This document shows, piece by piece, positions 16,563 through 62,251 of a stretch of 64,000 nt of DNA. The stretch spans positions 8,618,001 to 8,682,000 of the forward strand of contig NZ_CP082164.1 in assembly GCF_023101685.1 (NCBI RefSeq). Reading direction: 5' to 3'. Position numbers and translations under genes: made by a program. The DNA is from Bradyrhizobium sp. 186 (GTDB lineage: Bacteria > Pseudomonadota > Alphaproteobacteria > Rhizobiales > Xanthobacteraceae). The notes beneath the pieces were generated by a model. It had not been told where the DNA came from and did no database searches. It was given only the letters and a program-made list of their open reading frames with translations. Positions within the stretch are counted from its first letter, which is position 1, and each line of letters opens with the position of its first letter.

Positions 16563-17288
16563 TTAGGTCAATCGCTCGAAGATGACGTTGATGTCGGTCA
16601 TTGCGGCAAGCCGGTATGATCTGCATTCCATCAAATTGATGATACGAGCCCTGTTGCCCTTCAGAAAATGCTCGCTTGGCTCGCACTGGATGACAGCAGG
16701 TCTGATACGCTCGTAGTCAATCGCTTTAATGAGATCGTGATCCAGTCCTTCGCAATCGATAGACAAGAAGTCGACCTTGTTGGAGTATGGGATCAATAGC
16801 TCGTTAATACCCACAGCGCTCACCTCGATATGGTCTCGGATACCTCCTAAGCCGTCGAAGTCGCCAAAACTTTTAACATGTGCTTCATCCACAGACGAAA
16901 GCTCATGGGCGTTTCCGATGAAGAGCGTGGCGGAGGCCTGCGGAGCAGGCAAGACAACTGCCGGCACGAGAACGTCTCTCGGGCGCGCAGTCCGGATCAG
17001 CGCTCCCAACTCAGGATTGGGTTCAACTAGAACACCTTGCGCGCCCCTTTCGTACATAAGATAGGTACTCGAGGTAGATATGGGATGGTTGGCTCCGATC
17101 TCGACATAGAATATACTGTCCCAAGATCTTAGGCTTTTGCAGAGTCTTGCAGCCAAAATTCCTTCCAGAATGATGTCTTCGCCCGCTTGGGCATAGCTAA
17201 CCGGGGCGAAGTGCTTGATCCGAGACTGCGGAAGATGAAGCCTATCGACCTCTTGAATTATGGACTGATTTTCAAACTTGGAATGCAC
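16563..17288 (-). CDS. FkbM-family methyltransferase
   Basis: 241 residues from GTG 17288, with GGGGGTG upstream; no internal ATG would keep the N-terminal part. The protein fits the FkbM methyltransferase family: the SAM-binding glycine-containing segment YVEIGANHPISTSST, the acidic end of the second strand VLVEPNPELGALI, and the later VDFLSIDCEGLDHDLIKAI block. FkbM-type enzymes O-methylate sugars or polyketides and are common in surface-polysaccharide and secondary-metabolite loci. Here it stands alone between an IS remnant and a small orphan frame, so no pathway can be assigned. It appears intact. Confidence 0.82.
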   Translation of the reverse strand: MHSKFENQSIIQEVDRLHLPQSRIKHFAPVSYAQAGEDIILEGILAARLCKSLRSWDSIFYVEIGANHPISTSSTYLMYERGAQGVLVEPNPELGALIRTARPRDVLVPAVVLPAPQASATLFIGNAHELSSVDEAHVKSFGDFDGLGGIRDHIEVSAVGINELLIPYSNKVDFLSIDCEGLDHDLIKAIDYERIRPAVIQCEPSEHFLKGNRARIINLMECRSYRLAAMTDINVIFERLT

Positions 17289-17718
17289 AGGTTCACCCCC
17301 AACGTAACCAGCAATCTTGCGACACGCTCACTACAACCGTAGGCTCTTTGCTCATCATCCCAGCAATCGGCGTGCCACGTCGAATACCGTGCTCGCCCGC
17401 GTAGCGAGAGTGAAACACGCATGCGTGCCAACATGTCCGCTGGAATGGTCGCAACATTTTGTCGGGTACGCGACATCGATGCGATCTATCTGACCTGCAT
17501 AGAGAGGAGGAAGCCCCACCTCTAAACCGACATCGAACTCTGATTGAGATGAGCTGCGCTACGACGATCTGGCATCGAGGCTCACAATTACGACCATCTA
17601 TAAATGACCGAGGCAAAAGTGCTAGGGATCGACAAGAGTGTCTTGGATGGTACTGACCTGCTCCGCATACCTTACCGACGCTGATCTTCGCTCGAAAGCA
17701 CTGGACGGGAGTTGAGCC
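17289..17718. other. Intergenic region, no gene seen
   Basis: About 430 bases without a credible frame, separating the leftward FkbM gene from a rightward small frame. No hairpin or repeat stands out. Confidence 0.4.
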
Positions 17719-45159: not shown

Positions 45160-45261
45160 ATGACTCTTGAGCACTCCGACACGGAACGGGTTTGCGGGCC
45201 CGGTCAACTACCAACCCTCGTAATTGATCTAGATGACGGAAGCATGTCACCTATCGATTGA
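45160..45261 (+). CDS. Possible 33-residue peptide upstream of the PEP mutase gene
   Basis: From ATG 45160, with GGAG eight bases upstream, to TGA 45261. It is acidic (ends VIDLDDGSMSPID). It lies 48 bases before the PEP mutase start on the same strand. It could be a real short gene, a leader, or chance. Confidence 0.3.
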   Translation: MTLEHSDTERVCGPGQLPTLVIDLDDGSMSPID

Positions 45262-45309: not shown

Positions 45310-46251
45310 ATGCAAGACCGATTACCATCTGTTCTCGCCAACGGCCCTGATCAATCCGTCGGTTCCTCACGTGCTGAAATGCTGCGCGCCGAAATCTGCT
45401 CCCGCAGAGAGCTATCGTTCCTCATGGAAGCGCATGATGGTCTCTCCGCCGCAATCGCTGAGCGCGCAGGGTTCAAAGGCCTCTGGGCGTCCGGCCTGTC
45501 TATTGCCTGCTCCCTGGGCTACCGCGATGCCAACGAAGCGTCGTGGAGCCAACTCGTAGACGTAGTCGAGCGGATCGTGGACTCGAGCGAACTGCCTGTG
45601 CTCGTTGACGGAGATGGCGGCTTCGGGAATTTCAACAATGCGCGCCTCGTGACACGCAGGCTCCGTCAGCGTGGAGCAGCCGGCGTCGCGCTCGAGGACA
45701 GCTGCTTTCCGAAGATGAACTCGTTTGTTGGGCATCGGCACCCCCTCGCCGATATCGACGAATTCTCTGGCCGCCTCCGGGCAGTGAAGGATACAGTCGC
45801 GGACGACTTGATCTTGGTGGCAAGGATCGAGGCGTTGATCGCTGGGCATGAGATGGACGAAGCACTTTCGCGCGCTCACGCCTACGCCGACGCGGGAGCC
45901 GATGCGATCCTCATTCATTCGCGAAGGAGCACCGCGGACGAAATCCTTTCGTTCGCGCGCGCTTGGCAGAACAGATTGCCGGTCGTGATCGTTCCGACGA
46001 AATACTATCGAACGCCGATCTCTGTATACCGCAAAGCCAGCATCTCTACGGTGATCTGGGCCAACCACTCTATGCGAGCGGCAATAGCGGCAATGCGTCA
46101 AGTCTGTGGTCGCATCATCGCTGAGGAAAGCACCGCGAGCATTGAGCCGCACATTGCTACTCTCGAGGAAGTCTTCGAACTGTTCAAGTACGACGAACTC
46201 GCCCGTGCGGAAACGCGATATTTGCGGCCCGACGCTGAACTGCGCAAATAG
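45310..46251 (+). CDS. pepM: Phosphoenolpyruvate mutase (isocitrate lyase superfamily)
   Basis: 313 residues from ATG 45310, with AAGGAA upstream. The fold is a phosphoenolpyruvate mutase/isocitrate lyase TIM barrel. Metal-binding acids lie in PVLVDGDGGFGN (Asp100, Asp102). The diagnostic loop reads LEDSCFPKMNSF (residues 128-139). The family motif is EDKxxPKxNS, so the gating Lys135 and Asn137 are kept while the first Lys is replaced by Ser131. PEP mutase rearranges phosphoenolpyruvate into phosphonopyruvate, the entry step to nearly all natural phosphonates. It is followed by nucleotidyltransferase, CDP-alcohol phosphatidyltransferase and PLP-enzyme genes. Phosphonopyruvate hydrolase is an alternative role, but the neighbours favour biosynthesis. 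Confidence 0.85.
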   Translation: MQDRLPSVLANGPDQSVGSSRAEMLRAEICSRRELSFLMEAHDGLSAAIAERAGFKGLWASGLSIACSLGYRDANEASWSQLVDVVERIVDSSELPVLVDGDGGFGNFNNARLVTRRLRQRGAAGVALEDSCFPKMNSFVGHRHPLADIDEFSGRLRAVKDTVADDLILVARIEALIAGHEMDEALSRAHAYADAGADAILIHSRRSTADEILSFARAWQNRLPVVIVPTKYYRTPISVYRKASISTVIWANHSMRAAIAAMRQVCGRIIAEESTASIEPHIATLEEVFELFKYDELARAETRYLRPDAELRK

Positions 46252-46618
46252 GGTTTCGTCGACACAGGAGCGCATATTCGTTGTCGAAGACCTACTGTCC
46301 TGGACTTCCTCCTAGCTGGCCAGGTTCGACTGCAATCTCAAATGCCTAATCATTGCACTGAGATGTCCTTAGATGGCGTAGCACGCCTCACTCAACCGAA
46401 ATGCGCACTTTGCCATCTCGGCAGCTCGAGGCACCGGATCCAGCGCCTCCCTTCTCTCTGGAGAACGGACCGACGAGGACCATTTGTCTGTCTTCACGCT
46501 TGGGCTCCATTTTCAGATGGCTCCGGCAGACCTGATCTCGCTTCAGCACGCCTAAGCTGGCGCCGAAGAAGTCCGTCGGTGTTTCACCTTAGAGGCGCGA
46601 CGAAAAAGGAACTAAACG
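46252..46618. other. Gap within the phosphonate gene set
   Basis: About 370 bases between the mutase and nucleotidyltransferase genes. One frame (AHFAISAARGTGSSASLLSG and so on) looks partly protein-like but has no start; it could be the tail of a lost gene. No terminator was found. Confidence 0.35.
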
Positions 46619-47419
46619 GTGACCGATGCTCCCAAGAACGCCGTCATTCTCGCCGCTGGCTGCGGCTCTCGCCTGCGTCCTCTGACAGATCTGCGGCCGA
46701 AGTCGCTGGTCGAGGTCAACGGCACTTCGATTCTTCACAACGCTCTGCACAATCTGGAATCTGTCGGCGTGGAAGAGGTGACGATCGTGGTGGGTTACCG
46801 CAAAGACGCCATTCAATATGCCTGCGGTAGCCACTTTGGCGAACTCAAAATCAAATATGTCGAGTCGACCGTCTTCGACCGCACCGGAAGCGCCTATTCT
46901 TTGTGGCTGGCGCGCGACGCTCTTCTCTCCGGAAACTGCTTTCTTCTCGAGGGCGACGTCTTTTTCGAAGAGGATGCGCTGCGACACTTGATGGTCTGCC
47001 GGGGGACTGACGTAGCTGCAGTCGTTCCCTTCGATGATTCAATGGAAGGGTCGGCCGTTCTGTTGTCGCAGAACGGCTTCATCTCAGGTTTTCGATTGAA
47101 GCAAACCGCGGCAAATCTTGTTGCGGATGGCCCAAAGCTTTTCAAGACGATGAACCTCCTACGGCTTTCGGCGCCGACACTCAAGGCAACGATCGTTCCG
47201 ACACTGGACGATATCATCGCCGCTGGAGCTAGGCAGACCTACACCGAAGAACTTTTGGATTATCTGATTGACAGGAGAGGCCTACAGCTCGCCGCGGCGC
47301 GATGCGATGGCCTCAGCTGGTACGAAATTGATAATGCTGACGATTTGGAGATTGCCGAGCGCATTTTCAAGGACCGAACGAATGCCTACGCGGCGAGACG
47401 TGATTTGCAAACGAGGTGA
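46619..47419 (+). CDS. Nucleotidyltransferase, probable CTP-dependent headgroup activator
   Basis: 266 residues from GTG 46619, with AAAAAGGAA upstream. The N-terminus shows the nucleotide-binding signature LAAGCGSRLRPLTDLRPKSL of the sugar-phosphate/choline-phosphate nucleotidyltransferase family. FLLEGDVFFEEDAL carries the metal-binding acid of the product site, and SWYEIDNADDLEIAERI is the typical C-terminal metal-binding block of LicC- and PntC-like cytidylyltransferases. In this context it most likely makes a CMP-activated phosphonate, for example CMP-2-aminoethylphosphonate. Its stop is seven bases from the next start, indicating one transcript. Confidence 0.83.
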   Translation: MTDAPKNAVILAAGCGSRLRPLTDLRPKSLVEVNGTSILHNALHNLESVGVEEVTIVVGYRKDAIQYACGSHFGELKIKYVESTVFDRTGSAYSLWLARDALLSGNCFLLEGDVFFEEDALRHLMVCRGTDVAAVVPFDDSMEGSAVLLSQNGFISGFRLKQTAANLVADGPKLFKTMNLLRLSAPTLKATIVPTLDDIIAAGARQTYTEELLDYLIDRRGLQLAAARCDGLSWYEIDNADDLEIAERIFKDRTNAYAARRDLQTR

Positions 47420-47426
47420 GAGTTCA

Positions 47427-48032
47427 ATGCTGAAATACCTTTGGGATCCAGCGAACGCGATAACGATCACAGGTCTTCTCTTTTCCTCCGCCAGCCTGTT
47501 TTTAGCTCTCTCTGACCGCCTTGAGCTATCTGTGGCAGCAGCGCTTTGGGCTGTTCTATCGGACCACCTGGACGGGTTTGTGGCAGGTCGCACCAAAGGT
47601 CGCGATCCAGATGTCGCAAAAATGGGAGCGAGCCTCGACGGGTTTGCAGATATCGTCTATGGAGCCGTTGTGCCTGCGGTAGTTGTGGTACAAGTCAGCC
47701 AAGCTTCACAAGTCGCGCTTGCGACCGCAACCGCTCTACTGGTGACGGGAGCAATAAGGCTTAGCTACTTTGCGAACTTTGGCAGGTCGCGTGATGGACG
47801 CTTCTTGGGCGTCCCCTTGTCATACGACGTGCCGCTCCTGGCGCTTCTATTTCTTTTTAAGCCTCTTATTCCTGCTGAAGCATTTCCTGACGTCGTGAAC
47901 ATTGCCTTCTTGCTGCTCGCTATAGCGCATGTCGCGCCTGTTCGCGTGCCACCACTCAGCGCAACAATGTATACGGCAATAAGCATCTTCGCCGTCGCGT
48001 CATCGGTGATTTTAGCCAGTCGCTCCCTTTGA
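47427..48032 (+). CDS. CDP-alcohol phosphatidyltransferase-family membrane enzyme
   Basis: 201 residues from ATG 47427, with GAGGTGAG upstream. About six membrane segments. The family motif is present as DHLDGFVAGR followed by GASLDGFAD: Asp46, Asp49-Gly50, then Gly67, Asp71 and Asp75. There is one extra residue between the Ala and Arg and a longer spacer than in the standard D2DG2AR8G3D3D pattern. These enzymes replace CMP of a CDP- or CMP-activated group with an alcohol in the membrane. After a nucleotidyltransferase in a phosphonate cluster it is best read as the step that transfers a phosphonate headgroup to a lipid alcohol. Confidence 0.85.
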   Translation: MLKYLWDPANAITITGLLFSSASLFLALSDRLELSVAAALWAVLSDHLDGFVAGRTKGRDPDVAKMGASLDGFADIVYGAVVPAVVVVQVSQASQVALATATALLVTGAIRLSYFANFGRSRDGRFLGVPLSYDVPLLALLFLFKPLIPAEAFPDVVNIAFLLLAIAHVAPVRVPPLSATMYTAISIFAVASSVILASRSL

Positions 48033-48265
48033 TTGCGGATGGAAGTATGATCCAGCGACCGGCCTTCTTGGGCTTGCAGGCTTCACTCCATGCAGGTCAC
48101 ATGATGACGTGTAGTCTCGCCAACCGCGGCGTGCACCAGACTTGTTGCCGAGAACATTTCCGCACGGATCGGCACTGCTCGATGCTTGTTCGCTGGGAGC
48201 TTGTCGAGAGATCGCGACCATCCTACGATTTTCGTTTGTCCTGAAACGTTGAGCTAGTCGCACTC

Positions 48266-49375
48266 ATGAACAGCGCAGCACAAATCGCCGTATCCCTTAG
48301 GTCGGACGAGGTCTCTGACCTGGTCAACCGATTCCCCGGCGGCTATTGGAAATATGACATCAAGGACTTCGTCCTTCTGGTAAATCCTTATTTTCCGCCG
48401 CAGGCGTTCCTTGACGAACTTAAGAACGCTCTACCGCGGCTTATTACTTGCTATCCCTCTCCTAATGCGCAGATGGTCCAGCTTCTTGCGGATGCGGTGA
48501 AGACGCCGGCGAATAATCTTGTCATTTGCAATGGCGTGGCTGAACTGATTCCCATCCTCCTTGGCCGACTGGGTATGAGGATTGCTGTCCCGGTCCCAAC
48601 CTTCAATCCCTATGAAACCACCGCCTTGCCCGGGCGGTTGTCACGCTTTTTCCTGTCACCGCCAGATTTTGAACTCGATGTGCACCGCTATGCAGCATTT
48701 GCGCGTACAAATGGTGTCGACGGCGCTGTCGTGATATCGCCGAATAATCCCACTTCGCGGATGGTTCCCTATGCGGATTTACTATATCTCGCTTCCGCGC
48801 TTCGAGCTCAACAGCAACTCCTACTGATCGATGAGTCATTTATCGAGTTTAGTGAGCTCGGGCGAAGTGCGAGCCTGGAAAATCACTTGCTCGAATTTCC
48901 CAATGTGATCGTTCTCAAAAGCCTGGGAAAGATTTACGGGACATGCGGTTTACGGATGGGGTATGCGGCATCAGCAAATGTACAGACGATGGACGAAATT
49001 AGAGCCGCCCTCCCCACGTGGAATGTCAATACGTTTGCTGAGTTTTTTCTAAGCAAGCTTCCTCACCTGGCGCACGCGGCAAAGCAGAGTTGGGTGAGGG
49101 TAGGCAGCGACAGGGACAAACTATACGCAGACCTGCGCAGCATCGACGGAATGAGAGTTCTGAAGCCCGACGCAAATTTCGTGTTCTGCGAACTCCCGCC
49201 CCATTGGCCGGATGGGGACGTGATCGCCTCGACACTTTTAAAAGATAGACGGATATTGATCAGGCACAATGGCGGCAAGACGCTTCAGAATGGCAAACGA
49301 TTCCTGCGCATCGCAAGCCGCACTGAAGACGACAATAGGCTTTTGGTGGAAGCACTGAAAGACATCTCTGATTAG
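48266..49375 (+). CDS. PLP-dependent aminotransferase/decarboxylase, HisC/CobD-like
   Basis: 369 residues. Fold type I PLP enzyme: NGVAELIPILLGR near the cofactor, ISPNNPTSR (Asn161), LLIDESFIEF (Asp189) and the Schiff-base Lys222 in LKSLGKIYGTCGLRMGYAAS. The NGVAELI and KxYGxxGLRxGY blocks resemble CobD (threonine-phosphate decarboxylase) as much as HisC. In a phosphonate cluster it could aminate phosphonopyruvate to phosphonoalanine, or decarboxylate phosphonoalanine to 2-aminoethylphosphonate. Either would help explain the absence of a phosphonopyruvate decarboxylase. The choice cannot be made from sequence alone. It starts 233 bases after the phosphatidyltransferase gene on the same strand. 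Confidence 0.83.
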   Translation: MNSAAQIAVSLRSDEVSDLVNRFPGGYWKYDIKDFVLLVNPYFPPQAFLDELKNALPRLITCYPSPNAQMVQLLADAVKTPANNLVICNGVAELIPILLGRLGMRIAVPVPTFNPYETTALPGRLSRFFLSPPDFELDVHRYAAFARTNGVDGAVVISPNNPTSRMVPYADLLYLASALRAQQQLLLIDESFIEFSELGRSASLENHLLEFPNVIVLKSLGKIYGTCGLRMGYAASANVQTMDEIRAALPTWNVNTFAEFFLSKLPHLAHAAKQSWVRVGSDRDKLYADLRSIDGMRVLKPDANFVFCELPPHWPDGDVIASTLLKDRRILIRHNGGKTLQNGKRFLRIASRTEDDNRLLVEALKDISD

Positions 49376-51994: not shown

Positions 51995-53236
51995 ATGAAA
52001 ACGCTCTTTGACGTGCGCGGAGGCGAAGATGTGCGCGGCATCCCGTTGAGCGATCTAGATGTTAGCGAACCTAGACGATTTCAAGATGATAGCTTATGGC
52101 CTTGCTTCGAGCGGCTGCGAAGGGAAGATCCCGTTCACCACTGCCAAGACAGCCCATACGGACCATATTGGTCGATAACGAAATACCGCGATATCGTGGC
52201 CGTCGATACAAATCATAAAATATTCTCGTCAGAGCAAGGTGTCACGATCCTCGACGTGCCCGAGGAACATTGGACACCGAGTTTCATCAAGGTGGGTCCT
52301 CCCAAACATGCCGCGCAGCGCAACACCGTACGTCCGATACTCGCACCGGACAATTTGGAAAAACTCGAAGGATTAATCCGCAGTCGCGCTAGAACAATCC
52401 TTGATGGCCTGCCGCGCAATGAAGCCTTCAACTGGGTCGATATGGTCTCGATCGAGTTGACGACGCAGATGCTGGCCACGCTTTTCGACTTTCCGTTCGA
52501 GGATCGCCGGCTCCTGACGTATTGGTCGGACGTAGCCGTTGCAGCGCCGACGGTTGGGCAGGCGATCGACAGCTGGGGCAAGCGAAGCGCAATCCTGTCC
52601 GAGTGCTTGAAATATTTTACTCGGCTTTGGCGGGAGCGGATAAATGCCGAGCCACGATTTGATCTCATTTCGATGATGGCGCACTCGTCCGGGACTCGGC
52701 ATATGGAGCCACGTGAGTTTCTTGGCAATCTCATTCTACTGATCGTGGGGGGCAACGACACCACGCGCAATTCGATCACCGGTGGCCTGCTGTTCATGAA
52801 CCAGCACCCCTCCGAGCTACGAAAGCTACGAGATAACCCCGCCTTGGTGTCGAGCGCTGTGTCCGAGATTATTCGATACCAAACGCCCATCGCACATATG
52901 CGCCGCAACGCCACCGCGGACATCATCATGGGAGGCAAACAAATCAGGCGAGGCGACAAGGTCGTAATGTGGTACATCTCTGGCAACCGGGACGATGAGG
53001 TCATCGAGGACGCCAACAAATTTACGATCGATCGCAAGAACGTGCGCCAACATCTCTCGTTCGGATACGGCATCCATCGTTGCCTTGGTCGACATCTCGC
53101 GCAGCTGCAGCTTAAAGTCCTCTGGGAGGAGATACTGAATAAACGCATGGAGGTCGAGGTCGTTGGCGATCCGGAGCGCGTTGCATCGAACTTCGTGTAC
53201 GGTTATTCCGCACTCCCGGTCCGAATCATAGTCTAG
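51995..53236 (+). CDS. Cytochrome P450
   Basis: 413 residues from ATG 51995, with AAAGGACACGG upstream. All P450 hallmarks are present: I-helix oxygen-binding GGNDTTRN (residues 253-258 with Thr256/257), ExxR in SEIIRY (Glu291, Arg294) and the haem-binding FGYGIHRCLGRH with Cys363. It is a soluble bacterial class I enzyme, so it needs ferredoxin and reductase, neither of which is nearby. The sequence resembles terpene- or alkyl-hydroxylating bacterial P450s more than the CYP112/114/117 gibberellin enzymes of rhizobia, but I cannot place it. It stands as a single-gene unit. Confidence 0.92.
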   Translation: MKTLFDVRGGEDVRGIPLSDLDVSEPRRFQDDSLWPCFERLRREDPVHHCQDSPYGPYWSITKYRDIVAVDTNHKIFSSEQGVTILDVPEEHWTPSFIKVGPPKHAAQRNTVRPILAPDNLEKLEGLIRSRARTILDGLPRNEAFNWVDMVSIELTTQMLATLFDFPFEDRRLLTYWSDVAVAAPTVGQAIDSWGKRSAILSECLKYFTRLWRERINAEPRFDLISMMAHSSGTRHMEPREFLGNLILLIVGGNDTTRNSITGGLLFMNQHPSELRKLRDNPALVSSAVSEIIRYQTPIAHMRRNATADIIMGGKQIRRGDKVVMWYISGNRDDEVIEDANKFTIDRKNVRQHLSFGYGIHRCLGRHLAQLQLKVLWEEILNKRMEVEVVGDPERVASNFVYGYSALPVRIIV

Positions 53237-57316: not shown

Positions 57317-58810
57317 TTATTGGGACGACCCCACGACGTCAGCAAAATCAAGATAGACTGCCTCACCGACCTGCACACGACGAAGGTGCTGCCGGTATGC
57401 GCCGCTGCTGGTCTCGTATATCTTTTCAATCGTAAGAGGCACGTCCTGTCCATCATCGATAAAGACCTCTGCGAGCGCACGACCGGTCATCGTTGCCGGT
57501 CGCGAAAGGCCCAGAAGACCGAGCACTGTCGGCGCAATATCGCAAATGTCTGAGAGAACTTGCGAGACGAAGCCGTTTTTGATCAGCGGTCCCGCCAAAA
57601 TGCCGACCGACGACATCTCCTTGGCATGCAACCCGCCGTGCACTCCGAAGCCGAACGCCCCATCCGCACTCCAGGTGCGGCCCATAAGGCCAAATGGATC
57701 GAGACTGTCATCCGACCGGAACGAGAACAGAATGTCCGCCGATCGGGCATGGTCGGCGAACACCAAATGGCGGGCAAAGCTGCCCGGTGCAATGCCATCG
57801 ACCGCGCCACCCGCGGTAAACACCGGACCACACCAGGGCCGCTCGATCATCGATCCTACTGTGCGGCGGATAACGGCGTCCGATGGCTCGGCGAGGTAAA
57901 TTGCTCCGACTTGGCCAGGTATGACGATGGCATCAATCCCGGCCGCCGGTGCCGGGCCGCAGCGCAGCCCGGCAGCCTCGAGCGTCTCAAATAGATCGGC
58001 CCGCGCATGCACCGTCACATGTCCATGATCGGAGGCGGCGATCAGGTGCACGCCAAGGGAGACGCCCTCAGCCTCCCACCAATCGAGCACGCGGCCCAAC
58101 TGCCGATCGACAAAGCTGATCGCTTCCAGCGTCTTTGGCGCGCCAGTCCCACAATCGTGCGAGGAAATATCGGGCTCGCCGAAGGAGAGGATTGCGACGT
58201 CGGGCCGAATTTGAGGCCAGATTACGTCGAGGAACGCTGAAGTCAGAAAGGCTTGAGAGGCAAGATCTGGGTTGCCGGGGGGCGGCGGCGCAGGCGTCGG
58301 CCCCAGCAGGGTCTCCACCTGTCTGAGCATCTCGGCGGAGGTCGCGATGCAAGGGAAGTGGCCGGAGAGCGTCACTTGTCTGAACTTCCGAGCTTTGTGG
58401 TTCAGCAGGCGCGTTGCCCCCGCCGAGTTGGAAGCGAGGACTGAGAAGGTCCAGCCGTTCGCCGCGAGGATCTCACCAAGTGATGGCACACCGAGTAGAT
58501 GGCCCTCGCTCGCGGCATCAAGGTGCTCGATCAGGCGCGCGTCGCTCGTGTCGACAGAGCGCGGTATCGGCGACTGCCTGTCGAGATATTGATTTCCAAT
58601 GATGCCGTGGCGATCCGGCGTCGCGCCAGTGACGAGGCTCGTGAGCGCTATTCGTGTTTCACTGGGATAGACAGTGCGCTGCCTGGCCAGCACCGCACCG
58701 CGGCGCTGGAGCCTGACCAGATTCGGCGTCAATGATGGTTTGACGAGATCGGGTCGAAGCCCATCGAACAGCACGATGAGAACCCGATTCCGGTTCGGTC
58801 GGTCGAACAT
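57317..58810 (-). CDS. Alkaline phosphatase superfamily hydrolase (nucleotide pyrophosphatase/phosphodiesterase type)
   Basis: 497 residues from ATG 58810. The metal-binding core of the alkaline phosphatase superfamily is clear: first Asp in LIVLFDGLRPD, the nucleophile Thr in YPSETRIALTSLVTGATPDRH, Asp/His in FGEPDISSHDCG, Asp-His in ASDHGHVTV and a further His in GVHGGLHAKEM. The layout fits type I phosphodiesterases such as nucleotide pyrophosphatases; related members hydrolyse phosphonoacetate. No signal peptide is evident, so it may act in the cytoplasm. It is a single-gene unit, and a link to the phosphonate cluster 8 kb away is only speculative. Confidence 0.83.
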   Translation of the reverse strand: MFDRPNRNRVLIVLFDGLRPDLVKPSLTPNLVRLQRRGAVLARQRTVYPSETRIALTSLVTGATPDRHGIIGNQYLDRQSPIPRSVDTSDARLIEHLDAASEGHLLGVPSLGEILAANGWTFSVLASNSAGATRLLNHKARKFRQVTLSGHFPCIATSAEMLRQVETLLGPTPAPPPPGNPDLASQAFLTSAFLDVIWPQIRPDVAILSFGEPDISSHDCGTGAPKTLEAISFVDRQLGRVLDWWEAEGVSLGVHLIAASDHGHVTVHARADLFETLEAAGLRCGPAPAAGIDAIVIPGQVGAIYLAEPSDAVIRRTVGSMIERPWCGPVFTAGGAVDGIAPGSFARHLVFADHARSADILFSFRSDDSLDPFGLMGRTWSADGAFGFGVHGGLHAKEMSSVGILAGPLIKNGFVSQVLSDICDIAPTVLGLLGLSRPATMTGRALAEVFIDDGQDVPLTIEKIYETSSGAYRQHLRRVQVGEAVYLDFADVVGSSQ

Positions 58811-59662: not shown

Positions 59663-61075
59663 TCAGTGAGCGCGGCTTGTCAAGTGGCGGAACCGCAAGA
59701 CAAGGAGCGCCGCATAGACAGTCGTTCCGATCGACAAGCCAATCCATATACCAATGGCGCCCAGACCCATCTTCAGACCGAGCCAATAGCTGAGCGAAAA
59801 GCCGATCAGCCACCAAGCAAAGGCAGCAAACAGAAGCGGCACCCGCGTGTCCCTCAATCCGCGCAGGCCGCCTGCCGCAATGCACTGGGCCGCGTCAGTG
59901 ATAAAGAGGGTTGCGCCGACCACGATGAGCTTTGCGGCAACGCCAATCGTTGCCTCGGAATCGCCGGCCGATCTGCCCAGAAACAGCTCGACGATCTCAA
60001 AACGTGCGGCGATCAGCGTAAGCGTTAGCGTTGCGGCTATGACAATACCAAGCAACATCGCTGCCAGATTTGCCCGCTTGACGCCTGCACGGTCGTCGCG
60101 GCCGGCGGCATGGCCGACGCGTACGGCCGCGGCCGTGCCAACGCCGAGATAAATCATAAACATGATCGCGGCAATCTGAACAACAATCTGATGAGCGGCC
60201 AGTGCACTGGTGCTGATCAAGCCCGCAAGGAGCGACGTGGCCAAAAATAGTCCCGACTCGATCAATGAAGCGATGGAGATCGGCGTCCCGATTGCGATGA
60301 GCGGCCGCATTGCGCGCCAATCGAAACGCCAGAGATGCGCAAAGACATGGTAGTCACGGAACGGCCGGCGCAGTGCAGCGAACCACAACCCGGCCAAAAA
60401 AATGCTGCAGTTGACGAGCGTGGTCGCAAGACCTGCCCCGAACAGCTCGAGCCGGGGCAGCCCAAGCTTGCCATAGGCCAGCATATAGACCAGCAAGGCA
60501 TTGAGGGGGATGGCTGATAACGTAATCCAGAAGACTGGCTGTGGCCGATTGACCCCGCCCATGAAACTGCGGATAGCAAAAAACGCCAGTGCCGGAGCCC
60601 CGCCGAAGGCTAATCCGAAGAGGTATTGCTGGGCGAGCTGCGCCACATCTGGGGCTTGGCCCATCGCAAGCAGTATTTTCTCTGCTCGCAGCGCCACAAC
60701 AATGATCGGGAATGATAGGATCAGGGCCGCCCATAAGCCCATGCGCAGCGTACGCCGTACCGCGCCTAGATTATTTTCCCCAAACGCTCGCGCCGCCAAA
60801 GGCGCGATGGCACTTAGTAGTCCCACGCCGAAGGTGACGCTAATGAAATAGATCCGGCCCGCCAGCGCTGCCGCGGCGAGCGCCTCAGCGCTGATGCGCC
60901 CGATGAAGGCAAGGTCGGTCGTCATCATCGCGATCTGCCCAACCTGCGTCAGCACCATTGGCAACGCGAGTTTCGCGGTTTCGCCGAGCTCGATAGAGAA
61001 GCGACGGATAGCCGCCCGTCTCGTCCCTTCTGGTCGCGAGATTAATGCCGGCTTTGTCTTGGCTATCTTGTCCAT
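59663..61075 (-). CDS. MATE-family multidrug/metabolite exporter
   Basis: 470 residues from ATG 61075, strongly hydrophobic with about 12 membrane segments in two similar halves. Characteristic stretches are ALPMVLTQVGQIAMMTTDLA at the first helix, FIGRISAEALAAAALAGRIY, and in the second half IGTPISIASLIESGLFLATS, followed by AAHQIVVQIAAIMFMIYLGV and AAAVRVGHAAG. These match the NorM branch, which exports cationic drugs and metabolites by sodium or proton exchange. No regulator adjoins. It could export a product of this region, but nothing proves that. Confidence 0.9.
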   Translation of the reverse strand: MDKIAKTKPALISRPEGTRRAAIRRFSIELGETAKLALPMVLTQVGQIAMMTTDLAFIGRISAEALAAAALAGRIYFISVTFGVGLLSAIAPLAARAFGENNLGAVRRTLRMGLWAALILSFPIIVVALRAEKILLAMGQAPDVAQLAQQYLFGLAFGGAPALAFFAIRSFMGGVNRPQPVFWITLSAIPLNALLVYMLAYGKLGLPRLELFGAGLATTLVNCSIFLAGLWFAALRRPFRDYHVFAHLWRFDWRAMRPLIAIGTPISIASLIESGLFLATSLLAGLISTSALAAHQIVVQIAAIMFMIYLGVGTAAAVRVGHAAGRDDRAGVKRANLAAMLLGIVIAATLTLTLIAARFEIVELFLGRSAGDSEATIGVAAKLIVVGATLFITDAAQCIAAGGLRGLRDTRVPLLFAAFAWWLIGFSLSYWLGLKMGLGAIGIWIGLSIGTTVYAALLVLRFRHLTSRAH

Positions 61076-62251
61076 ATAATCATGTCGCCGTTTGCGTGGG
61101 CGAACGAAATACCGCTTTTTTTCACGGGAGTATTACGTTCTGACGTAAATTCGCGGTCAGCCCGCGATGCTGCTCGCGGGCAGCCTCGTGCGACCGCACG
61201 TTGTTTAGATGCAAAAACTGACGACGGCTTGGCTTCGTGCAGCGCGGCCCCGATTTTCGCATGCGATAAGCGCCAAGGAGAGGTTGCAAATGCCGCGCCA
61301 GAATTGGCCAATCACCGCAATGGCGCAACGGTGACGGCGCGCATCGGGATCGAGCGAGGTCGATCGAGGAGGCGATTCATGCGCAGGCCACTGGGTTGAT
61401 GCCAAAGATTGGAGGGCCCGAACTCGGACCCGATCCATGCCATGAACTGAAGACTTATCATCCCGCAACCCATCCCTGCACTTCTGAGCAATCGATGGGA
61501 TCTCACTGTTCAAAGCCCATGCCAACTGCGACAGCTTGACTAATGCTTCCTCTCATCCAAGCCGACCTGTCGCGGGATCGACAGCACGTCGCAAACAAGA
61601 CAACCGGCATCGCACGCGCTCAGCCCGAGAGGGCGGCGATGCGACTACACGGTGGGTCGCAATTTCATCGGTTAGGAAGACCTAGCGGGATTGATTCGTC
61701 ACGAGCTCTGTAAGCTCGCGCCTGCTCGACTGGATCACAGATATCGATATGCAATCACATTGATGAGCTGCGCGGCCTCGATCCCGCTCTTGGCGCCTTG
61801 GAAAATGAAGTGCTCTCGGCAGTGGGTCACAAGTCAGCAAGCCATAGACGTCGATGGTGACTTCCCCTTTCTTTGGCCTCGCGCACGCTGATCTAGTTCG
61901 TTCACACCGGACACATTCCGCTCGGCGGCTGCAGCCCTTTTTTCGTCTGTTTGGGTGACGGCATGCGCCAGCTTGGGGGTCGACCGCTCATGGACGCCAT
62001 GAGAATATAACAAGAACACCGAGTCGTGTCCCGACTCGGCAGTTTTGTGGGCGGCGAGCGGCTCGGCCGAGACAAGCAGCACGACCCGAGCTGCGAGGGC
62101 ACATGAAAGTGGCGAGTCCGAAGGCTGCACATGGAATCCGGTGCTCTGCCCCCTTTGTTAGCCTTACCCAGCAAGGTTTCCGTTTGAAAAGCGATGATGT
62201 GTGCTACCCGGCCTTAGGTAGCGCCGGTATTGTCGGGCTTTCATTGAACCT
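61076..62251. other. Long region without an identified gene
   Basis: Nearly 1.2 kb upstream of the MATE gene. A leftward frame at 61834-62130 has a signal-like stretch (ALAARVVLLVSAEPLAAHKT) but an uncertain start. Nothing else is supported. Confidence 0.4.

Follow-up and report, generated by a model that had tools for sequence, protein, structure and literature searches.

A CobD-like PLP enzyme in a Bradyrhizobium phosphonate gene set without phosphonopyruvate decarboxylase, and its possible relation to opine-like products of root nodules

The window analysed here is a stretch of 64,000 nucleotides (C1:8618001-8682000) from the 10.77 Mb genome of Bradyrhizobium sp. 186. Its G+C content is 57%, whereas 14 short stretches from other parts of the genome have 61-66%. 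It holds a compact set of phosphonate genes, pepM, ntp, cdpP and plp, which encode a phosphoenolpyruvate (PEP) mutase, a nucleotidyltransferase, a CDP-alcohol phosphatidyltransferase and a pyridoxal phosphate (PLP) enzyme. The original prediction, made from the letters of the window, had described them as one rightward series, and all four are indeed intact, in the same order and read rightward, an arrangement that is conserved in relatives. The features of the locus are as follows.

45202..45229, + strand: operator-like palindrome GGTCAACTACCAACCCTCGTAATTGATC, 5' of pepM
45310..46251, + strand: pepM, PEP mutase, 313 aa; over the TIGR02320 cut-off, motif EDSCFPKMNS
46252..46618, no strand: 367-bp gap, the place of an aspartate-aminotransferase-like gene in related clusters
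46619..47419, + strand: ntp, LicC/PntC-like nucleotidyltransferase, 266 aa; LAAGCGSRLRPLTDLRPK signature, matches to LicC 1jyk and PntC 6pd1
47427..48032, + strand: cdpP, CDP-alcohol phosphatidyltransferase, 201 aa; PF01066, four catalytic Asp
48266..49375, + strand: plp, CobD-like PLP enzyme, 369 aa; CobD and HisC models, profile matches to solved chains, Phe192

The pepM product passes the equivalog model for PEP mutase, TIGR02320, with 336.1 bits against a cut-off of 319.55, which supports the phosphonate biosynthesis that had been predicted. Its nearest solved chain is the Mytilus PEP mutase 1m1b (321 bits), with the phosphonopyruvate hydrolase 2dua at 201 bits, and it aligns with 1m1b at RD, at both Asp of DGD, at the E of LED, at the K and NS of PKxNS and at the R of ARIE. 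In the Mytilus enzyme, these positions serve the metal and the substrate. Only one further place in the genome matches PepM at 1e-50, and it is the phosphonopyruvate-hydrolase-like gene. Family membership argues strongly that PepM makes phosphonopyruvate from PEP. The motif EDKXXXXXNS has served as a search filter for PEP mutases (Rice et al. 2019, PMC6697681), whereas the window protein reads EDSCFPKMNS, so the claim made here is that it works like a PEP mutase, not that it belongs to the group defined by that motif. Among Bradyrhizobium PepM open reading frames with a readable motif, EDS is found in 48/54 and EDK in 6/54, with 4 more unreadable. Since these enzymes mostly carry EDS, mining filtered on EDKXXXXXNS would miss them, and the filter may hide much of the rhizobial family.

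The ntp product matches NTP_transf_3 (54.5 bits; cut-off 27) and carries the LAAGxGxRLxPxTxxxPK nucleotide loop of LicC and PntC, starting at residue 11. LicC 1jyk is its nearest solved chain and PntC 6pd1 is matched as well, such that the CMP activation proposed in the original prediction can be upheld as a step predicted from sequence. The mechanical open reading frame for cdpP opens at 47268 inside ntp, and the likely start, in our reading, is the ATG at 47427, which gives 201 aa. The cdpP product matches PF01066 (29.7 bits; cut-off 22), with the four catalytic Asp in DHLDGFVAG...GASLDGFAD, a motif at residue 46 that has Gly in place of the Arg of the consensus. It is likely, given these families, that a CMP-activated aminophosphonate is made and then joined to an alcohol. 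The prediction had gone further, to a possible phosphonolipid headgroup; CDP-alcohol-type transfer is supported by PF01066 and the four Asp, but nothing beyond the transferase family points to a lipid. A true phosphonolipid pathway, with a CMP-aminophosphonate transferred onto diacylglycerol, would agree with the general habit of CDP-alcohol phosphatidyltransferases, which usually act on lipids, and with the NCBIfam neighbours of CdpP, which are PssA and archaetidylserine synthases, every one of them below cut-off. The partner genes of relatives, described below, bear on this alternative.

Pnt pathways with PntC likewise combine a PEP mutase with a LicC-like cytidylyltransferase and proceed through a CMP-activated aminophosphonate, but Pnt clusters have phosphonopyruvate decarboxylase (Ppd) and a 2-aminoethylphosphonate (AEP) transaminase where the window has a CobD-like PLP enzyme and a CDP-alcohol transferase (PMC6697681). 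The absence of Ppd, first remarked for the window, extends to the whole genome, in which no place passes the Ppd model TIGR03297 (best 144.8 bits; cut-off 312.5). Split sulfopyruvate-decarboxylase-like genes account for the three best places and were rejected as Ppd because they fall below the cut-off. A ppd gene together with an AEP transaminase elsewhere in the genome had been named as the case that would restore the standard pathway; it was examined, and no Ppd over cut-off was found. The best match to PhnW (321.4 bits) lies below the TIGR02326 cut-off of 400.8, and the same stretch passes the AEP-transaminase model NF010006 (338.4 bits; cut-off 296). This stretch (G000:C1:8997779-8998846; L255, L259) forms the N-terminal half of a fused protein of 850 aa whose other half is an O-acetylhomoserine (OAH) sulfhydrylase, a layout known from the rhizobitoxine enzyme RtxA. 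In our judgement this fusion should not be counted as a plain AEP transaminase, given its score below TIGR02326 and its RtxA-like layout. Without Ppd, the standard AEP pathway is incomplete whether or not the fusion is an AEP transaminase. Separately, the RtxA-like fusion suggests that the strain may make rhizobitoxine. The C-P lyase protein PhnI is also present in the genome.

Orthologues of plp with at least 84% identity are found at 17 loci in 16/265 Bradyrhizobium genomes, the window genome included. The order pepM-ntp-cdpP-plp is kept in 17/17 loci, and in all of them plp is a stand-alone gene inside the pepM operon; plp is intact in 17, cdpP in 17, ntp in 16 and pepM in 15. Median ratios of nonsynonymous to synonymous substitution (dN/dS) against the window copy are 0.18 for pepM, 0.21 for ntp, 0.21 for cdpP and 0.17 for plp. 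The four-gene unit is under purifying selection, and the shared order together with the low dN/dS indicates that the gene set is not a chance assembly. All plp-bearing genomes carry nifH (16/16), and Bradyrhizobium sp. 187, a relative with an annotated plasmid, came from a root nodule. More widely, pepM is present at E <=1e-90 in 110/265 Bradyrhizobium genomes, 107 of the 110 with nifH. Clusters related to these are also plasmid-borne in Sinorhizobium, Rhizobium, Mesorhizobium and Agrobacterium. The plasmids include a Ti plasmid, pTi_CFBP1905 (L242), on which a cluster of pepM, aminotransferase, ntp, oxidoreductase and CDP-alcohol transferase genes is accompanied by ornithine-cyclodeaminase-like and cysteine-synthase-like genes.

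The plp product scores 181.7 bits with the CobD model TIGR01140 (cut-off 290.55) and 125.2 bits with the HisC model TIGR01141 (cut-off 276.55), and is therefore CobD-like but not CobD; it also differs from CobD in sitting in a phosphonate rather than a cobamide gene set. A profile of 48 plp relatives was compared with solved chains, with 235 bits for 6oux, 208 for 3ftb, 170 for CobD 1lc5 and 156 for HisC 8bj1. CobD and 6oux are thus among its best-matching solved chains; 6oux is named as Thr-P-decarboxylase-like and corresponds to the L-serine-phosphate decarboxylase SMUL_1544. Residue 192 is Phe in 48/48 relatives. Phe stands at this position in 6oux, in 1lc5 and in 3ftb, which was deposited as HisC, and Tyr stands there in 8bj1, 8bj4 and 3euc, such that plp has Phe where several HisC chains have Tyr. 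The original suggestion that a CobD-like PLP enzyme supplies an odd pathway step gains from the match to 6oux and from a CobD score above the HisC score. Another PLP gene, c7, which lies 3' of cdpP in other clusters, is no close homologue of plp and was given no function.

The lost partner of the window type is an aminotransferase. Among 40 pepM loci, 13 have a full aspartate-aminotransferase-like (AspAT-like) gene of this kind, and others read pepM-ntp-cdpP or pepM-ntp without it; 6/40 have a gene from cluster c19, which is of Ppd type and whose one scored member passes the Ppd model. In L049, the most divergent window-type locus, the first part of the aminotransferase survives as a scar between pepM and ntp, with a protein match at E 6e-4 and a DNA match of 78% over 102 bp (E 2e-15), from which the dedicated enzyme of related clusters appears to have been lost in the window type. 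The window's own 367-bp gap between pepM and ntp holds no aminotransferase remnant above shuffled controls, and the genome has no close copy of the lost enzyme elsewhere (best 36% identity). The plp enzyme could be the successor of the AspAT-like enzyme as the phosphonopyruvate aminotransferase of this lineage, with a phosphonoalanine ester as the product. It also matches HisC, and 3ftb, a chain deposited as HisC, comes second among its solved matches. Phosphonopyruvate is known to undergo transamination: in the phosphonoalamide pathway the transaminase PnaA converts it to phosphonoalanine, and the product there is a tripeptide made by ATP-grasp ligases (PMC11867202). The rhizobial clusters that bear an aminotransferase would likewise lead from phosphonopyruvate to phosphonoalanine rather than through a decarboxylation; the window type has lost that aminotransferase. 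We nevertheless judge a transaminase role for plp to be rather unlikely. In 6/6 rhizobial pepM+plp loci outside Bradyrhizobium, a separate aminotransferase lies beside pepM, so that plp is probably not merely that transaminase. The loci are those of Rhizobium sp. 007, M. loti 582, S. fredii CCBAU 83666, S. meliloti AK83, S. garamanticum and Mesorhizobium sp. 131-3-5; the plp-type enzyme stands alone in the first two, whereas in the other four it forms part of a longer and probably fused protein. In a seventh record, R. jaguaris, pepM and plp lie far apart, and it was left out of the count. In addition, the scores and Phe192 side with the decarboxylases, and one pepM-ntp-cdpP locus without an aminotransferase (L174) is without plp as well. 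Decarboxylation of phosphonoalanine to AEP is the preferred role, which makes plp a candidate phosphonoalanine decarboxylase, an assignment to which we give roughly even chances.

Another substrate has to be weighed, in that plp might decarboxylate O-phosphoserine (or phosphothreonine) to give a second phospho-alcohol, either as the acceptor or for a parallel CDP-ethanolamine branch. Relatives of plp that are fused to a nucleotidyltransferase adjoin CDP-alcohol transferases, and the stretches read around them show no pepM; some pepM clusters hold a separate ntp plus a long PLP protein; and the best solved relative, 6oux, is itself Thr-P-decarboxylase-like. The window-type plp, however, is a stand-alone gene in the pepM operon at every one of its 17 loci, and we regard the phosphoserine route as improbable. 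Across an order-wide sample, 3/397 genomes match plp at 1e-45, the window genome included, the other two in long, probably fused frames. One fused nucleotidyltransferase-PLP protein, on pBM700 of Priestia megaterium (L065), adjoins two ATP-grasp genes and a gene for 1-deoxy-D-xylulose 5-phosphate (DXP) reductoisomerase, possibly a self-resistance copy.

With phosphonoalanine decarboxylation as the preferred role of plp, a pathway can be proposed. PepM would convert PEP to phosphonopyruvate, a general aminotransferase would convert this to phosphonoalanine, and plp would decarboxylate phosphonoalanine to AEP, an irreversible step that could stand in for Ppd in drawing the unfavourable equilibrium of the mutase forward. 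Ntp would then make CMP-AEP, and CdpP would move the phosphonyl group onto an alcohol. The product would most likely be a small phosphonate ester of the rhizopine or opine type, made in nodules and exported, rather than a structural lipid.

The system extends beyond the four genes first noted, in that relatives have partner genes for an importer, a phosphodiesterase and a phosphonopyruvate hydrolase. Features of the window that belong to this part are as follows.

57317..58810, - strand: pde, alkaline-phosphatase-superfamily phosphodiesterase, 497 aa, partner gene; PF01663, 111 bits
58826..59467, - strand: small gene between the MATE gene and pde, found beside pde and MATE in several plp-bearing loci
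59663..61075, - strand: MATE-family exporter, candidate exporter; over the TIGR00797 cut-off, near pde in plp-bearing loci
61285..61300, - strand: sigma-54-like site 5' of MATE-pde, with a NifA-type upstream activating sequence (UAS) at 61568-61583

The small gene matches neither an NCBIfam model (at 1e-10) nor a Pfam one (at 1e-5). Full-length pde with at least 82% identity is present in 14/16 plp-bearing genomes, and none above 77% is found in the 249 others. In relatives pde is the last gene of an importer operon, and on a plasmid of Bradyrhizobium sp. 4, in sp. 187 and in M. loti 582 it lies 3' of genes for a solute-binding protein, two ATPases and two oligopeptide-type permeases. These genes face the phosphonopyruvate hydrolase gene pphA, which is accompanied by a LysR regulator gene and, in M. 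loti, by the transaminase gene palB as well. Rhizobium sp. CCGE531 has the parts side by side: pepM-aminotransferase-ntp-cdpP-asnB, then pde-dipeptidase-importer, then LysR-palB-pphA. S. meliloti ml47 and M. huakuii have a sugar-type importer instead, and the M. huakuii stretch contains no pde. The reactions of the module are likely the reverse of synthesis, namely import, ester cleavage, transamination and hydrolysis to pyruvate and phosphate, and relatives would thus hold a matching set for uptake and breakdown in the importer, the phosphodiesterase, PalB and the hydrolase. Such genes make sense for a small soluble ester. Because they point to a small compound that is exported and re-imported, the phosphonolipid is not favoured and seems unlikely to us; a small opine-like product, on the same gene evidence, is somewhat the better bet.

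Synthesis and breakdown genes go together. On 14 plasmids (records of 281-1717 kb), pepM and pphA lie 6.8-33.6 kb apart, although some of these plasmids are near-duplicates and no joint probability is claimed. Among Bradyrhizobium genomes, pepM is found in 52/55 with pphA and 58/210 others, and within nifH genomes in 51/53 with pphA and 56/106 others. One genome (G190) has pde, the importer and pphA with no pepM at 1e-90, and is possibly a consumer only.

The breakdown module decays in the lineage of the window. In the window genome, palB-pphA lies about 31 kb downstream of pepM, with pphA frameshifted near residue 23 and a stop in one permease gene. Either palB or pphA is defective in 9/11 palB-type modules of plp-bearing genomes as compared with 3/12 in genomes without plp (Fisher p 0.012, for related genomes that are not independent), with lesions at different places, some of which, in draft genomes, could reflect errors of sequencing. 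This count excludes three loci without plp and one G189 copy that has no palB; the 12 modules are those fetched from 44 genomes with pphA and without plp, and pphA defects were counted from residue 21, given that stops may precede the annotated start (290 aa). The genes for synthesis are largely preserved where the module decays. This pattern would be expected if the product no longer yields phosphonoalanine, and a product change of that kind fits decarboxylation by plp.

A 28-bp, partly palindromic site marks the pepM genes, its consensus being self-complementary at 22/28 positions. The core, with <=4 mismatches, lies 83-149 bp 5' of pepM in 50/67 cases, and shuffled upstreams never fall below 8 mismatches; the 67 are the pepM genes with upstream DNA at hand, L062 being excluded as its upstream lies outside the locus. 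The 17 without the palindrome comprise 9/9 non-Bradyrhizobium loci, four Ppd-type loci and four other Bradyrhizobium loci. Within 400 bp 5', the site also precedes 5/30 aminotransferase and 2/59 ntp genes, and it is found 5' of 0/10 pphA, 0/6 palB, 0/19 importer and 0/34 pde genes. The window genome has three sites with <=3 mismatches (control 0), and the 3-kb stretches around the other two hold no recognisable phosphonate gene. A LuxR-type gene with an autoinducer-binding domain (one member scanned) is present near pepM in L037, L038, L044, L105, L153, L154, L169 and L185, and could encode the regulator of the palindrome.

No sigma-54/NifA promoter was found for window-type pepM and no nod box in the window. 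Sigma-54-like and UAS sites are only slightly commoner in the window than in shuffles, and the sigma-54 site of MATE-pde is kept in 4/11 MATE upstreams.

Expression of related genes has been described in M. loti R7A, in which lacZ fusions to pepM (msi327), aatA (msi326) and asnB (msi323) give <20 units in broth but 827, 2456 and 862 units in 14-day nodules, where nifH gives 855 (PMC3538637). In a nifA2 mutant the values are 7.7, 16.2 and 22 units, mutants in the three genes form fully effective nodules, and these genes have no NifA promoter 5' of them (PMC3538637). The word phosphonate is absent from that report, and its available passages do not discuss the product (PMC3538637). We infer from names and order only that the R7A genes belong to the clusters described here. 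Nodule-specific but dispensable expression of this kind is, by analogy, the behaviour expected of a rhizopine.

In rhizopine (mos/moc) and agrocinopine systems, synthesis and catabolism are linked on symbiotic or tumour-inducing elements, and agrocinopine is taken up with an oligopeptide-type importer and a phosphodiesterase. The likeness lies in the linked pepM and breakdown genes of relatives and in their oligopeptide-type importer with phosphodiesterase. Close linkage of synthesis and catabolism genes on a symbiotic element is seen in relatives; in the window strain, with its distance of about 31 kb, pphA and a permease gene are defective. Variovorax Pal2 is reported to degrade phosphonoalanine through palA/palB, likewise with a transaminase, a phosphonopyruvate hydrolase and a LysR regulator. 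The rhizobial palB-pphA genes are unlike Pal2 in being joined to an importer and a phosphodiesterase, often near pepM. We know of no phosphonate rhizopine or opine, and none appeared in the literature listings searched.

The whole reading, from PepM through phosphonoalanine, decarboxylation by plp and CMP-AEP to an alcohol ester that is a small exported product of the opine type, is put forward at a little short of even chances. Several points weigh against it. As plp misses the CobD cut-off, its substrate is not fixed by family, and loss of the aminotransferase with presence of plp could equally make plp the new transaminase. The RtxA-like fusion does pass one AEP-transaminase model. The window strain itself may recycle nothing, given its pphA frameshift and permease stop. 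On plasmids, pphA is found on 2/8 pepM+plp records and 12/48 other pepM records, with no association; this equal frequency means that the plasmid-level test does not support the idea of a product switch. M. loti 582 holds plp together with palB-pphA, annotated as whole genes. Finally, the R7A data come from a relative that has the aminotransferase and asnB.

More tentatively still, rhizobia may hold a large and overlooked class of nodule-made phosphonate opines. These would be aminophosphonate esters made by PepM, a transaminase and/or a CobD-like decarboxylase, a cytidylyltransferase and a CDP-alcohol transferase, recoverable by kin through uptake and breakdown genes nearby and with a related cluster on a Ti plasmid, and the window would be the variant in which a PLP decarboxylase acting on phosphonoalanine replaces Ppd. 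If this holds, root nodules would count among the places on land where phosphonates are produced. Bacteria would trade there a source of phosphorus, nitrogen and carbon usable by few others, and the rhizopines of legume symbionts would include a second chemical class. It would also account for R7A pepM, aatA and asnB fusions that reach the level of nifH or above in nodules and yet are dispensable.

Some further observations concern the surroundings of these genes. On a plasmid of Rhizobium sp. 007 (L062:9244-17122), the region 3' of pepM...plp holds a gene of the octopine/nopaline dehydrogenase family, which is another opine-like hint, and genes for a methyltransferase, an MFS transporter, a methylaspartate ammonia-lyase and a metallophosphoesterase. 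On a plasmid of Mesorhizobium sp. 131-3-5 (L251), a pepM cluster and importer directly precede nifHDKEN, with the last annotated importer gene ending about 4 kb before nifH. Within the window, a cytochrome P450 gene lies between plp and pde (51995-53236); its nearest model is SolI, below cut-off (446/850 bits), and the gene is visible in 1/16 other window-type loci in the stretches fetched. A perfect sigma-54 site and a perfect NifA-type UAS, at 17362-17377 and 17460-17475 of the window, stand before an FkbM-methyltransferase gene (16563-17288).

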